Part shown: one piece after another, positions 4,767 to 36,160 of the stretch
How positions within the stretch are numbered: position 1 is the first letter of the stretch
Layout of the letters: every line of letters begins with the position of its first letter
Assembly (NCBI GenBank): GCA_035995165.1
Contig: DASYKU010000089.1
Coordinates: 1-47,925, forward strand
Source: Mycobacteriales bacterium
GTDB lineage: Bacteria; Actinomycetota; Actinomycetes; Mycobacteriales; CADCTP01
DNA: 47,925 nucleotides
Direction of reading: 5' to 3'
Program-made: the position numbers and the translations under genes
The notes under the pieces: model-generated
The model's input: only the letters and a program-made list of their open reading frames with translations
What the model was told of the DNA's origin: nothing
Database searches by the model: none

Positions 4767-4976
4767 TCAGTTCTCGACGAGGAAACGGACGGCGTCCGCC
4801 TGGGGACCCTTCTGGCCCTGCGCCACGTCGAACTCGACGCGCTGGCCCTCCTCGAGGGACTTGTAGCCGTCCATCTGGATGGCCGAGTAGTGGACGAACA
4901 CGTCCTGCCCGCCGTCCACGGCGATGAAGCCGTAGCCCTTCTCGGCGTTGAACCACTTCACGGTGCCCTGTGCCAC
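4767..4976 (-). CDS. Cold-shock protein, CspA family
   Basis: A 69-residue single-stranded nucleic-acid-binding protein (RNA chaperone) of the CspA/ScoF family. RNP1 (KGYGFI, 13-18) and RNP2 (VFVHY, 26-30) are intact and the length is standard. The GTG at 4974-4976 gives the classical start (V/M)AQGTVKWFN and has AGGAGT (4981-4986) upstream; the longer frame starting at 5060 adds an unrelated N-terminus. The 170-bp leader upstream may form the long untranslated region common for csp genes, but I see no firm structure in it. Confidence 0.96.
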
Positions 4977-5147
4977 GTGCACTCCTACCTCGGGGCGATC
5001 GGACCCCGCACCGCACGGAACCCGGGTCTTAGCCACCGGTCCCGCACTTGCCGTGTGCACGCCTTGCGAGGACGTGATGCTCGCGCCCGAAACCTGAACC
5101 TCGACCGAGCGGGACGGTACACGAAACCAGTCCCGTGAAACACCGTC

Positions 5148-5852
5148 TCAGCGGTCCAGTTCGGCGGCCAGATCGGCGGCTCCGGAGCCGTCCGCGGCCC
5201 GCCGCAGACCCGCGTACGTGACGGTCGCGAACGCCGTCGCCAGCACCGAGAACGGCAGCGCCACCAGGGCCCGGACGACCTGGGACGGACCGCTGGGCAG
5301 GGCCTGGACCGCGGCCCCGGCCAGCGCGCCGTAGAAGGCGGCGGCGAACAGGCCGGCCGCGCAGCGGGCGATCGTGCCGGCCAGCCGGCGGTTCACCAGC
5401 GCGGCGGCCCGGCGCAGGCCGGCGCCCTCGACGACGACCGCGCCCGGCAGGGCGGCCGCGCCGACCGCGGCGACGTAGAGACCGGGCAGCACCGCGAGCG
5501 CCAGCCCGGCCAGGGTCAGCACCGCCGTCAGCGCCGACCAGCCCAGCAGCAGCGGGGTCCGCCGGACGCCCGCGGTCAGCGCCGCCGACACCGCGGTCGG
5601 GCGGCCGGCAGCCTCCCGGATCGTGAGGTCGACCGACGCGGCCTGGGCCAGCGTGATCGCGGCCGCGCCGAGCAGGCCGGCGAGGACGTCGCCGACTCGG
5701 CCCACGTGCGACAGTCCAAAGGCGACAGCGCCGGCCGGGAGGAGCACGGCCAGCTGCAGGACGAGCAGCGGGCGGCCGCTGCGGCGCAGGACCCCGGCTA
5801 CCCGCCGGGCCCACCCGGACAGCGTCTCCGCCGCCAGCGCATCCTCCCCCAC
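5148..5852 (-). CDS. Integral membrane protein of unknown function
   Basis: A 234-residue, Ala/Val/Leu-rich protein with about six hydrophobic segments (around residues 29-47, 58-75, 100-125, 125-145, 165-190, 195-215). It resembles the glycerophosphoryl-diester-phosphodiesterase membrane-domain type proteins common in actinobacteria, but I cannot assign a reaction. Transcribed toward the csp gene; the upstream neighbour on the same strand is the FAD oxidase, separated by a hairpin. Confidence 0.75.
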   Translation of the reverse strand: MGEDALAAETLSGWARRVAGVLRRSGRPLLVLQLAVLLPAGAVAFGLSHVGRVGDVLAGLLGAAAITLAQAASVDLTIREAAGRPTAVSAALTAGVRRTPLLLGWSALTAVLTLAGLALAVLPGLYVAAVGAAALPGAVVVEGAGLRRAAALVNRRLAGTIARCAAGLFAAAFYGALAGAAVQALPSGPSQVVRALVALPFSVLATAFATVTYAGLRRAADGSGAADLAAELDR

Positions 5853-5907: not shown

Positions 5908-7182
5908 TCAGGCGGTGAGGGAGCGGGCGGGGGTGACGCGGCCGGCGGGGTCGCGTTCGCGGCGGATGCGGGCGAGGTCGGCCGCGTGGGACGGGAGCAG
6001 CGCGTCCGGCGCGGTCGGCTGCCCGTCGCGCAGGGCGGCGAAGGACCGGCCGGAGTCCACCGGCGCGGCCGCGGCGAGGACCGCGGCCAGGTCGTCGAGC
6101 GTCCCGGGCTCGCCGGCCGCGCCGGTCGCGTGCAGCAGGAACGGCGCCGGTGCCGACGTCAGCGCGCCGTGCGGACCCGGCACCGTGCCGACGTGCCGGA
6201 CCTCGACCTCGCCGAGGGATCCGGCCGCGGCGAGGATGTCCGCGGTCGCCGCGGCCGAGGTGAGGAACCGGCTGTCGCCCAGCGCCGGCACCGGACCGGG
6301 CGGGTCCAGGTGGATCGCGCCCAGCCCGGACGTCGGCATCTCCCCGACCGCGGCGACGACCGGCGCCGGCAGCGCGCCCGCCACCGCGGCCGAGAACGCC
6401 TGTCCCGCCGCGAGATCCGTCGCGCAGACCCCGAGGTATGCGACCGGGGCACCGCGGACCGGTTCCACCGGCGCCATCCCGAGCCGCCCGAGCACCGTGC
6501 TCACCGACTCCGGCAGCCGGTCCACCAGCCCGGCCCAGACGCCGGCCACGTCGCCCAGCGCCTCCTCCGGCCAGAGCAGGTAGCCCGCCCACACCGGCCC
6601 GGCCGGCACCAGCCCGAACTCCAGCTCGGTCGCGACCCCGATCCCGCCGCCACCGCGGAAGACCCAGAGCGCCTCGGGGTCGACGGCCTCGGAGGTTGTC
6701 CGGACAGCTCCGGCAGCGTCCACATAGGACACTGCGGTGAGGCGGGCGGCGGCCAGCCCATGGGCACGGGCCAGCCAGCCGATCCCGCCGTGGAAGGTGT
6801 AGCCGGCCACGCCGACCCCGGCCGAGGTCCCGGCCAGTCCGGACAGGCCGGAGGACCCGGTCACCGCGGCCACGTCGCCCCAGGTGGTCCCGGCGCCGAC
6901 GACCGCGGTCCGGGCGGCCCGGTCCACGCTGACGGACACCAGCCGGGAGGTGTCGACCAGCAGCGTCCGCTCGTCCAGCTCGCCCGCGGCACCGTGCCCG
7001 CTGCACTGCACCGCCACCGTCAGCCCGGACCGCTCGGCCAGCCGGACCGCGTCGACCACGCCCTCGTACGACCGGACCCGCGCGACGAGCGCCGGCCGCT
7101 GCACCGCCGACGCCGTCCACGGCGAGGTCACCGCGCCGTACCCCGGGTCGGACGGCCGCAGCAGGTCCAGCGAGGAGTCCAT
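5908..7182 (-). CDS. FAD-binding oxidoreductase (VAO/PCMH family, BBE-like)
   Basis: A 424-residue flavoprotein of the vanillyl-alcohol-oxidase family. The N-terminal PCMH FAD-binding domain is visible (VQCSGHGAAG, the typical DTSRL, then VVGAGTTWGDV and YTFHGGIGWLARAHG), followed by a substrate domain and the berberine-bridge-type C-terminus RIRRERDPAGR. The His of CSGHGAAG may hold FAD covalently. The ATG shares one base with the stop of the threonine-synthase-like gene, so it should be co-translated and come under the same SAM riboswitch. Substrate unknown. In the gene order recalled for Streptomyces metM, a sulfur-carrier gene sits at this downstream position; here it is an oxidase. Confidence 0.85.
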   Translation of the reverse strand: MDSSLDLLRPSDPGYGAVTSPWTASAVQRPALVARVRSYEGVVDAVRLAERSGLTVAVQCSGHGAAGELDERTLLVDTSRLVSVSVDRAARTAVVGAGTTWGDVAAVTGSSGLSGLAGTSAGVGVAGYTFHGGIGWLARAHGLAAARLTAVSYVDAAGAVRTTSEAVDPEALWVFRGGGGIGVATELEFGLVPAGPVWAGYLLWPEEALGDVAGVWAGLVDRLPESVSTVLGRLGMAPVEPVRGAPVAYLGVCATDLAAGQAFSAAVAGALPAPVVAAVGEMPTSGLGAIHLDPPGPVPALGDSRFLTSAAATADILAAAGSLGEVEVRHVGTVPGPHGALTSAPAPFLLHATGAAGEPGTLDDLAAVLAAAAPVDSGRSFAALRDGQPTAPDALLPSHAADLARIRRERDPAGRVTPARSLTA

Positions 7183-8447
7183 CAGCCGATGAGCCCGGCT
7201 TCGCGGGCGGAGCGGAGCGTGGGCTTGACCGTCATGGTCGGGCCCAGCCGGCCGGCGACCGCGTCGAGCGTCTTGAGCCCGTCACCGGTGTTGTAGATGA
7301 CGGTCTCGGCCGCGGGGTCGAGCGCGCCGGCCGCGAGCAGCCGGCGCAGCGTCGCCACCACGACCCCGCCCGCGGTCTCGGCGAAGATCCCGGTCGTGCG
7401 GGCCAGCAGCTGGATGCCGTCGCGGATCTCCTCGTCGCCGACGTCCGCGATGGCCCCGCCGGACCGCCGGACCGCGTCCAGCGCGTACGGCCCGTCGGCC
7501 GGGTTGCCGATGTTGAGCGACTTCGCGATCCCGGTCGGCTTGACCGGCTCGACCACGTCCCGCCCGAGCGCGAACGCGGTCGAGATCGGCGCGCACCCCG
7601 AGGACTGGGCCCCGAACACCCGCCAGGGCGAGGAGTCCACCAGCCCCAGCGACACCAGCTCCCCGAACGCCTTGTCCACCTTGGTCAGCAGCGATCCCGA
7701 CGCCATCGGGATCACGACCTGCTGCGGCAGCCGCCAGCCGAGCTGCTCGGCCACCTCGTAGCCGAGCGTCTTGGACCCCTCGGCGTAGTACGGCCGGACG
7801 TTGACGTTCACGAACGCCGTCGCCTCGAACTCGTCGGTCTCCTGCAGCTCCGAGCAGAGCCGGTTGACGTCGTCGTACGAGCCCTCGACCGCGACCAGGG
7901 TGCCGCCGTACACGGCCGTCTGGACGATCTTGGCCGGCTCCAGGTCGGCCGGGACGAGCACGATCGAGTCGAGCCCGGACCGGGCGGCGTGGGCCGCCAC
8001 CGAGTTGGCCAGGTTGCCGGTAGAGGCGCAGGCGACCCGGGTGAAGCCGAGCTGCTTGGCCGCGGTCAGCGCGACCGAGACGACCCGGTCCTTGAACGAG
8101 TGGGTCGGATTGGCGCTGTCGTCCTTCACCCAGAGCGAGCGCATGCCCAGCTCGGCCGCCAGCCGGTCGGCCCGCACCAGCGGAGTCATCCCGGGGTTCA
8201 GAGTCACCCGGGCCCGGGCATCCTGTCCCACCGGGAGGAGGGCCGAGTAGCGCCAGATCGAGTGCGGCCCGGCCTCGATGCTGGATCGCGTTAACCCGGT
8301 CAGCGCATCATGGTCGTAGCCGACCTCGAGCGGGCCGAAGCACTCGAAACACGCGTGCTGCGGACCGAGAGGGAAGCGGGCTCCACAGTTGCGGCAACGA
8401 AGCGAGTCGGCGGCAGAGGAGGTCGAGGCGTCGGCAGTCAGGGTCAC
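7182..8447 (-). CDS. Threonine synthase-like PLP enzyme, probable MetM (homocysteine-forming)
   Basis: A 421-residue fold-type II PLP enzyme. A zinc ribbon (C18, C21, C33, C36) precedes the catalytic domain; the PLP lysine lies in SANPTHSFKDRVV (about residue 117) and the phosphate loop in ASTGNLANS. By family it would convert O-phospho-homoserine to threonine. The leader is a canonical SAM-I riboswitch, a methionine-pathway regulator, which would make little sense for plain threonine synthesis. A threonine-synthase homologue (MetM) that makes homocysteine from O-phospho-homoserine with a sulfur-carrier protein (MetO) is known in Streptomyces, so I favour MetM. No MetO-like gene is adjacent. 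The GTG start has AGGA six bases upstream, touching riboswitch helix P1. Confidence 0.85.
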   Translation of the reverse strand: MTLTADASTSSAADSLRCRNCGARFPLGPQHACFECFGPLEVGYDHDALTGLTRSSIEAGPHSIWRYSALLPVGQDARARVTLNPGMTPLVRADRLAAELGMRSLWVKDDSANPTHSFKDRVVSVALTAAKQLGFTRVACASTGNLANSVAAHAARSGLDSIVLVPADLEPAKIVQTAVYGGTLVAVEGSYDDVNRLCSELQETDEFEATAFVNVNVRPYYAEGSKTLGYEVAEQLGWRLPQQVVIPMASGSLLTKVDKAFGELVSLGLVDSSPWRVFGAQSSGCAPISTAFALGRDVVEPVKPTGIAKSLNIGNPADGPYALDAVRRSGGAIADVGDEEIRDGIQLLARTTGIFAETAGGVVVATLRRLLAAGALDPAAETVIYNTGDGLKTLDAVAGRLGPTMTVKPTLRSAREAGLIG

Positions 8448-8457
8448 TTACAGTCCT

Positions 8458-8570
8458 CTCATCTTCCCCGGGCAAGTGAATCCCGGGACGGAGTTGGCAC
8501 CTGCCGCGGTTGTTCAGGCGGTGGTTGCCGGGGCTTCATCGGGCCGTGTCCCTCTGCCCCTCTGGATGAG
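8458..8570 (-). ncRNA. SAM-I (S-box) riboswitch
   Basis: Read on the minus strand, the leader carries the S-box core: CTCATCCAGAGGGGCAGAGG at the 5' side, then GGCCCGATGAAGCCCCGGCAACC, the GGTGCCAACTCCGTCC block and a closing GATGAG that pairs with the first CTCATC (P1). The Shine-Dalgarno AGGA of the next gene follows P1 without a gap, so SAM binding probably blocks translation initiation rather than ending transcription. SAM as ligand is well established for this class. Confidence 0.95.
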
Positions 8571-8642
8571 GCGTGCGTTCAGTTGTACTTGCCATTCAAG
8601 CACGAGTGGCCGAGCTGGGGGCCCCACGGAAGGGGATGGTGC

Positions 8643-35969: not shown

Positions 35970-36160
35970 GGAAACACTCCGACCACAACTCCATTCCGCG
36001 CGACAGCGGGGGAAGTCCGGTACGAATCCGGCGCTGACCCGCAACGGTGATGCCGCCCCGGCGGCGAGCCCGAATGCCCGCCGCCGCGTCGTTCTCCCTC
36101 TCCCGTCGTGGCCCGCGGGACGGAGTCCGGTCGCCGGGCGCAGGTCGCATCCGGTGCGCG
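35970..36160 (+). ncRNA. Cobalamin riboswitch 1 (upstream of the uptake operon)
   Basis: The adenosylcobalamin aptamer core is plain at 36006-36049: GCGGGGGAAGTCCGG, then ACGAATCCGGCGCTGACCCG and CAACGGTG, the invariant GGAA...AATCC...GCTGNCCCGCAACGG string. A TTGACA (35950-35955) lies upstream as possible -35. The 5' and 3' limits are approximate. Expected to switch the downstream operon off when B12 is plentiful. Confidence 0.95.

Follow-up and report, generated by a model that had tools for sequence, protein, structure and literature searches.

Hasebe et al. are said to have placed metO downstream of metM in Streptomyces in 2024, and to have named MetO-thiocarboxylate as the donor of sulfur. 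The metM gene of Streptomyces albulus has an S-adenosylmethionine (SAM) riboswitch upstream and its product is a homocysteine synthase, according to PMC12172450. Carriers that serve more than one pathway are described in reports on the BexX/MoeZ 2-thiosugar system (PMC5321127) and on the ubiquitin-like proteins (Ubls) of Thermococcus (PMC11323500). Here, we describe a 47,925-nucleotide stretch of DNA from a Mycobacteriales bacterium (assembly GCA_035995165.1, contig DASYKU010000089.1), called the window in its whole length, in which a SAM riboswitch precedes a metM-type gene that has no metO beside it. With a probability of about 0.6, we consider this gene to encode a SAM-controlled MetM whose partner MetO would have been lost and whose sulfur would be donated by CysO, the carrier encoded beside cysM. 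Neither a metO-less MetM nor CysO as a homocysteine donor was found in any paper among the literature matches listed, or in the portions of PMC13257386 and PMC12452182 that were available, although such work may still be published.

The metM-type gene and its riboswitch

The earlier note on this DNA had recognised a canonical S-box in front of a threonine-synthase homologue, and profile searches agree (Table 1). The RF00162 match extends over model positions 1–108, scores 83.4 bits (gathering score 44.4; E 2.5e-18) and is the sole match to this family in the 5.37 Mb window genome (150 of 241 candidates scored). The GTG start codon of metM lies 8 nt 3' of the aptamer end, and the 3' strand of the P1 helix, GATGAGAG, is also part of the Shine-Dalgarno region of the gene, within GATGAGAGGACTGTAAGTG. 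Since one strand does both, closure of P1 upon SAM binding should block metM translation. The aptamer ends in AGATGAG plus two bases in 41 of the 44 aptamers compared, and by eye this end falls ~6 to 18 nt ahead of the start codon; the exceptions are L140 and two loci with poor aptamer calls, L054 and L056.

A metM-type match at E ≤ 1e-100 occurs in 106 of 148 genomes of the class. One hundred of these loci were fetched besides the window, and five of the 106 matches were left out as truncated (G004, G070, G058, G067 and G015). SAM riboswitches, MetX, MetY and HTS were surveyed in 79 genomes, namely 25 of the 30 MetO-less, 12 of the 71 MetO-bearing and all 42 metM-negative ones, with strict riboswitch filters by which weak matches are lost. 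A SAM riboswitch lies within 600 nt upstream of metM in all 37 metM genomes, with weak scores of 47–49 bits in G100, G111 and G132; the genomes without metM have one over the cut-off elsewhere in 4 of 42 cases and below it in two more (G002 and G084). The association between gene and riboswitch has a Fisher p of 2.8e-18 if kinship is ignored.

The 421-amino-acid (aa) product matches the PALP domain with 228.9 bits and just misses the PRK08197 model (287 bits against a cut-off of 303). It falls into one tree group with 125 other MetM-type proteins (126 rows), metO-bearing loci included, for which the outgroup consists of two very distant rows only, the ThrC and the PRK08197-type protein of the window genome. 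Four N-terminal cysteines and the residues L146-A147, A249-S250-G251 and K309-S310-L311 are present in all 126 proteins and differ from ThrC of the window genome, so that GNTS, GNAG and TAI of the latter stand as GNLA, ASG and KSL in every MetM-type protein. MetM of the f20 genomes, which we take to be Streptomyces, is 57–64% identical to the window protein. A structure model built from 15 relatives (mean predicted local distance difference test, pLDDT, 81.4; predicted template-modelling score, pTM, 0.85) is matched best by Arabidopsis threonine synthase 2c2b (Z 40.9, root-mean-square deviation 2.4, 378 residues). The fold search returns PALP enzymes, threonine synthases first, with no CysM in the best 50 matches listed, and its results do not distinguish between MetM and ThrC. 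The 2c2b enzyme was crystallised with pyridoxal phosphate (PLP) and SAM, and it matches the model including its N-terminal part (model residues 8–393).

The window genome, which comprises 162 contigs and is given as 100% complete, contains further homologues of the window protein, two closer ones and two weak PALP matches. The earlier note had allowed for a sole thrC that clusters with true threonine synthases beside a standard methionine pathway; what is found is a second, canonical thrC in a hom-thrC-thrB-rho arrangement on contig C46 (with hom, thrB and rho identified by eye), apart from the window gene on C89, and its product is taken as the true ThrC. A third homologue, of PRK08197 type (392 aa, 515.8 bits), lies on contig C1 (L002 1495–2673) behind an alpha/beta hydrolase-like open reading frame (ORF). 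Neither MetX (NF001209, E 1e-60) nor MetY (TIGR01326, E 1e-130) is matched at threshold in the genome, and HTS has no match at E 1e-3. Among MetX-like proteins, the best is a hydrolase of PRK07581 type (469.7 bits), which reaches 166–173 bits with MetX models whose cut-offs are 331 and 500, and the one high-scoring Cys_Met_Meta_PP protein matches PRK07811, annotated as cystathionine gamma-synthase (MetB-type), with 657.5 bits. PRK07811-like proteins may also work as gamma-lyases in reverse transsulfuration. As no MetX, HTS or MetY is recognised, O-phospho-homoserine is the sole recognisable activated homoserine. Together with the separate hom-thrC-thrB operon, this makes MetM the best reading of the window gene, and we hold it to be very probable that the gene is a metM under SAM control, as the earlier note had proposed in preference to threonine synthesis.

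In the single-contig relative G095 of the same order, which has its tree place beside Micromonospora and Salinispora, MetX and MetY were likewise not found, and all nine same-order genomes without metM have both. Both are absent from 10 of the 25 metO-less and 5 of the 12 metO-bearing metM genomes, and among the 42 genomes without metM both occur in 34, one in 2 and neither in 6 (G007, G010, G014, G076, G084 and G140).

Absence of metO and the remaining carriers

The lack of an adjacent metO, already noticed earlier, holds for all six frames of the window, in which a MetO profile finds no match; it counts against a MetM/MetO pair and not against a MetM-like function. In 71 of 101 loci, a CysO/MetO-like ORF lies no more than 600 nt downstream of metM; the other 30 have no metO neighbour, and the MetO profile finds none elsewhere in these loci. 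Named genomes were represented by the best 80 loci among the matches listed, chosen by likeness to the window and including Micromonospora, Salinispora, Actinoplanes, Dactylosporangium, Glycomyces, Blastococcus, Geodermatophilus, Modestobacter and Frankia; some repeat class loci (among them L256 = L033, L262 = L064 and L263 = L090). Four of them have a metO neighbour, 73 have none and three end too soon (L237, L238 and L244). Absence of metO is thus real, widespread and common to whole families.

The MetM tree, which uses 26 of the 80 named loci (L149, with 375 aa, was dropped), has seven changes of metO state, at least five of them on well supported branches, and it places the window in a metO-less group of 22 rows from Micromonosporaceae, Geodermatophilaceae and Glycomycetaceae (SH-aLRT 100). 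This tree alone does not separate loss from gain. Because MetO forms nearly one group and lies directly after metM in 71 loci, repeated loss would most simply account for its absence here and in several lineages. Residue changes in MetM were compared at the 19 positions where at least two MetO-less lineages differ. Convergent change after metO loss was rejected, as no listed position is altered in all five MetO-less lineages. Clade A, to which the window belongs, and clade B (Frankia) may be sisters and have changes in common at positions 11, 20, 124, 149, 153 and 312. The MetO-type residue is kept at 14 of 19 positions in lineage C and at 17 in lineage D, so metO loss did not demand these changes.

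Three ThiS-family proteins exceed the cut-off in the window genome: CysO, ThiS and a MoaD-like protein (Table 1); a fourth match has 15.3 bits. A dedicated MetO elsewhere in this genome, one of the options raised by the earlier note, can therefore be set aside. Of the 30 MetO-less class genomes, 28 yielded a CysO, which in all 28 lies 6–173 nt before CysM; for G074 and G119 (82–84% complete) there is no CysO-type match among the matches listed. Carrier matches in class genomes were listed down to ~45 bits, so weaker or further ones may exist (G012 has one, L173). The best carrier was fetched from 18 named genomes, and in 17 of them CysO precedes CysM; the exception, L190, is the metagenome-assembled genome nearest the window, for which only a distant carrier paralogue was found. 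MetO and CysO form separate groups with two changes between states in a tree of few columns. Their tail and body are nonetheless alike: PAVAGG is identical in 59 CysO (28 + 31) and 71 MetO proteins, and the 71 MetO have a median BLOSUM62 score of 251 against CysO of the window genome, compared with 38 against its ThiS and 52 against its MoaD-like protein.

Carrier inventories differ among the 47 named MetO-less genomes. Exactly one strong match (≥137 bits) is present in 43, accompanied by a weaker one in 27 of these and as CysO only in 16, which include the Micromonospora and Salinispora genomes searched; G148, G168, G191 and G194 have no strong match. Some carriers have features of their own. 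Allorhizocola rhizosphaerae, with a metM that has no neighbouring metO, has an unlinked second carrier (L315) that is MetO-like (TPTPDG before the tail, end AVAGGS). G029 (100% complete as given; metM locus L123) has metM-metO with MetO as the sole ThiS-family match among the matches listed and no CysO found, and its MetO might serve CysM. CysO of G111, G142 and G085 (L152, L160 and L165) contains a second in-frame tail, VT[IV]LPAVAGG, ~20 residues after the first, and two of the three stop exactly at the second GG. Longer CysO C-termini (at least five residues past AVAGG) occur in 24 of 43 MetO-less and 1 of 31 MetO-bearing genomes; with four independent pairs on supported branches this difference is not significant and was discarded as a signal.

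Candidate sulfur donors

In the pathway that we propose, Hom and ThrB would make O-phospho-homoserine, as for threonine, and MetM, a PLP enzyme with its origin in the threonine-synthase family, would exchange the phosphate for sulfur to give homocysteine and hence methionine. MetO would have been lost repeatedly, and thiocarboxylated CysO of the mec-cysO-cysM route would deliver the sulfur, so that CysO would serve cysteine and methionine synthesis alike. Abundant SAM would close P1 of the S-box over the Shine-Dalgarno sequence and switch translation off. CysO would be the most economical donor, and its likeness to MetO leads us to favour it, by a little, as the main source of sulfur for MetM. 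A wider proposal is put forward tentatively: in several large actinomycete families, MetO would have been lost repeatedly, and CysO-thiocarboxylate would feed CysM, which turns O-phosphoserine into cysteine, as well as MetM, which would turn O-phospho-homoserine into homocysteine. If it is true, the homocysteine gap would be filled in genomes that have no recognisable MetX or MetY.

Several observations weigh against this proposal. The tail by itself is not enough to point to CysO, as ThiS of the window genome ends in RAVAGG. In the 27 of 47 named genomes mentioned above, though not in the window genome, CysO is accompanied by another carrier of more divergent sequence, and an unlinked MetO is possible in some class genomes given the ~45-bit limit. 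MetO-type residues are gone from MetM of clades A and B at positions including 149, 153 and 312, which could mean a different donor. Fifteen of the 25 MetO-less metM genomes have MetX and MetY too, and the MetB-type protein and MetX-like hydrolase kept in the window genome make an unrecognised transsulfuration route possible. The 421-aa protein also passes the TIGR00260 thrC model with 263 bits against a cut-off of 167.1, a score for which annotations will probably label metM a further threonine synthase; MetM and ThrC are not distinguished by this model. Finally, a Microcystis homologue that is 51.6% identical to S. albulus MetM, and that is adjoined by a metO-like sulfur carrier gene, is reported to be mainly a threonine synthase and not fully a MetM (PMC12172450), so homology is not simply equal to function.

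The explanation that survives best beside CysO donation is that MetM of MetO-less lineages has turned into, or was always able to act as, a sulfhydrylase that uses free H2S and needs no carrier. It would fit the absence of MetO from the window genome and the loss of MetO-type residues at 124, 149, 153 and 312 in clades A and B. When a cyanobacterial homologue was supplied with O-phospho-homoserine and Na2S, a peak of unassigned identity was recorded near methionine, although such a peak was present with no sulfur source too (PMC12172450). Two points speak the other way: CysO with the same tail is kept beside CysM in 28 of 28 MetO-less genomes with a fetched carrier, though cysteine synthesis alone explains this, and lineages C and D keep most of the listed MetO-type residues. 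Overall, we regard free sulfide as unlikely.

Use of another carrier, such as ThiS (C4), the MoaD-like protein (C116) or, in other genomes, a second CysO-like paralogue, is less probable still. The presence of three ThiS-family proteins, the ThiS tail, the second CysO-like proteins of named genomes (the unlinked Allorhizocola carrier with MetO-like features among them) and the known sharing of carriers between pathways (PMC11323500 and PMC5321127) all make it conceivable, and a second carrier may be a donor in genomes that have one. MetO is, however, much closer to CysO than to the ThiS or MoaD-like protein of the window genome. The suggestion in the earlier note that another sulfur donor is used thus stands as the best option left, with CysO as leading candidate.

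That the gene is an ordinary second threonine synthase, which SAM would turn down to yield less threonine or a balanced flux at high SAM, has slightly lower odds again. The TIGR00260 score, the threonine synthases that are its nearest solved structures and the reported activity of the Microcystis homologue are in its favour. Against it stand the canonical thrC in hom-thrC-thrB, the fixed differences from ThrC around the PLP and substrate loops, and the MetO-like carrier that adjoins metM in 71 of 101 loci. A SAM riboswitch accompanies metM in 37 of 37 genomes, while the Microcystis gene has none (PMC12172450), and no other recognisable homocysteine route exists in the window genome among those searched (MetX, MetY and HTS). 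A part for the flavin adenine dinucleotide (FAD) oxidase encoded next to metM, for example in a sulfur-handling or redox step, was the remaining idea of the earlier note and is rejected as highly improbable: as the note had observed, its start overlaps the metM stop, here by one base (TGATG), so the two are probably co-translated under the same riboswitch, but no such oxidase is near metM in any other fetched locus, whether among the 100 from the class (none at E 1e-4) or the 80 from named genomes (none at E 1e-3), 180 in total, some of them cut short or duplicated and the nearest relative, at 80% identity, included. Its only NCBIfam matches, BagK/FevA1 and BagG/FevA2, are secondary-metabolism oxygenases and lie far under their cut-offs.

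Neighbouring genes and comparison with known systems

Table 1. Position of the predicted metM, its riboswitch and neighbours in the window, and of sulfur carriers elsewhere in the genome
Feature	Position	Strand	Basis or remark
Predicted homocysteine synthase of MetM type (421 aa), related to threonine synthase, with PALP fold and four N-terminal cysteines	7182..8447	(-)	profiles, tree, fixed residues, structure model
SAM-I riboswitch aptamer	8456..8572	(-)	RF00162 83.4 bits, sequence, 44 aptamers compared
FAD-dependent oxidase, 424 aa	5908..7182	(-)	FAD_binding_4 66.2 bits
234-aa protein, between oxidase and csp	5148..5852	(-)	ORF list; no NCBIfam or Pfam match
Cold-shock protein gene csp	4767..5060	(-)	best CspE model 108 bits, cut-off 120 missed
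GroEL-like ORF, runs off contig start	1..540	(-)	recognised by eye
CysO	contig C93, 6 nt before CysM, after JAMM-motif ORF (taken for mec)		PF02597 66.6 bits
ThiS	contig C4		TIGR01683 59.1 bits, over cut-off; tail RAVAGG
MoaD-like protein	contig C116		27.5 bits, under cut-off of its best model

Of the csp and groEL genes that the earlier note had seen close by, the first is present and the second is represented by a GroEL-like ORF. The distance from metM to the start of the csp match is 67–236 nt across 18 loci from Geodermatophilaceae or bacteria akin to them, and 175 nt in L190, the nearest relative, which suggests that csp is probably the ancestral downstream neighbour of metM. As csp closely follows metM in relatives and none of the other fetched metM loci has the oxidase, the latter and the gene for the 234-aa protein probably entered between metM and csp as an insertion in the window lineage. 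The 234-aa ORF contains hydrophobic stretches and has a gene-like codon bias. Farther along the window, a cobalamin riboswitch match at 35987–36099 (+) scores 32.9 bits against a gathering score of 31.5.

The closest described system is MetM/MetO of S. albulus, with which the window has in common a threonine-synthase homologue and a SAM riboswitch upstream; csp also lies close downstream, as seen here in the f20 loci. The window differs from it in three ways: metO was found neither beside the gene nor in the rest of the genome, metM and csp are separated by the genes for an FAD oxidase and the 234-aa protein, and sulfur is probably supplied by CysO. CysM/CysO/Mec of Mycobacterium tuberculosis, as described in PMC3227635, has its counterpart in the JAMM-motif ORF, cysO and cysM that lie together on another contig of the window genome. 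The proposed donation of sulfur by CysO to a phosphorylated amino acid substrate would resemble that of CysM with O-phosphoserine (PMC3227635), whereas MetM is a PALP protein of the ThrC branch and would use O-phospho-homoserine. ThrC itself (TIGR00260; 2zsj, 1uim, 2d1f and 2c2b) agrees with MetM in fold (Z 33–41) and in the PLP lysine motif SFKDR; fixed loop changes, predicted regulation by SAM and the presence of a distinct ThrC in the window genome set MetM apart. In the BexX/MoeZ and Thermococcus systems, secondary metabolism, cofactor or tRNA pathways share carriers with primary ones; here, the pathways that would share a carrier are those of cysteine and methionine.

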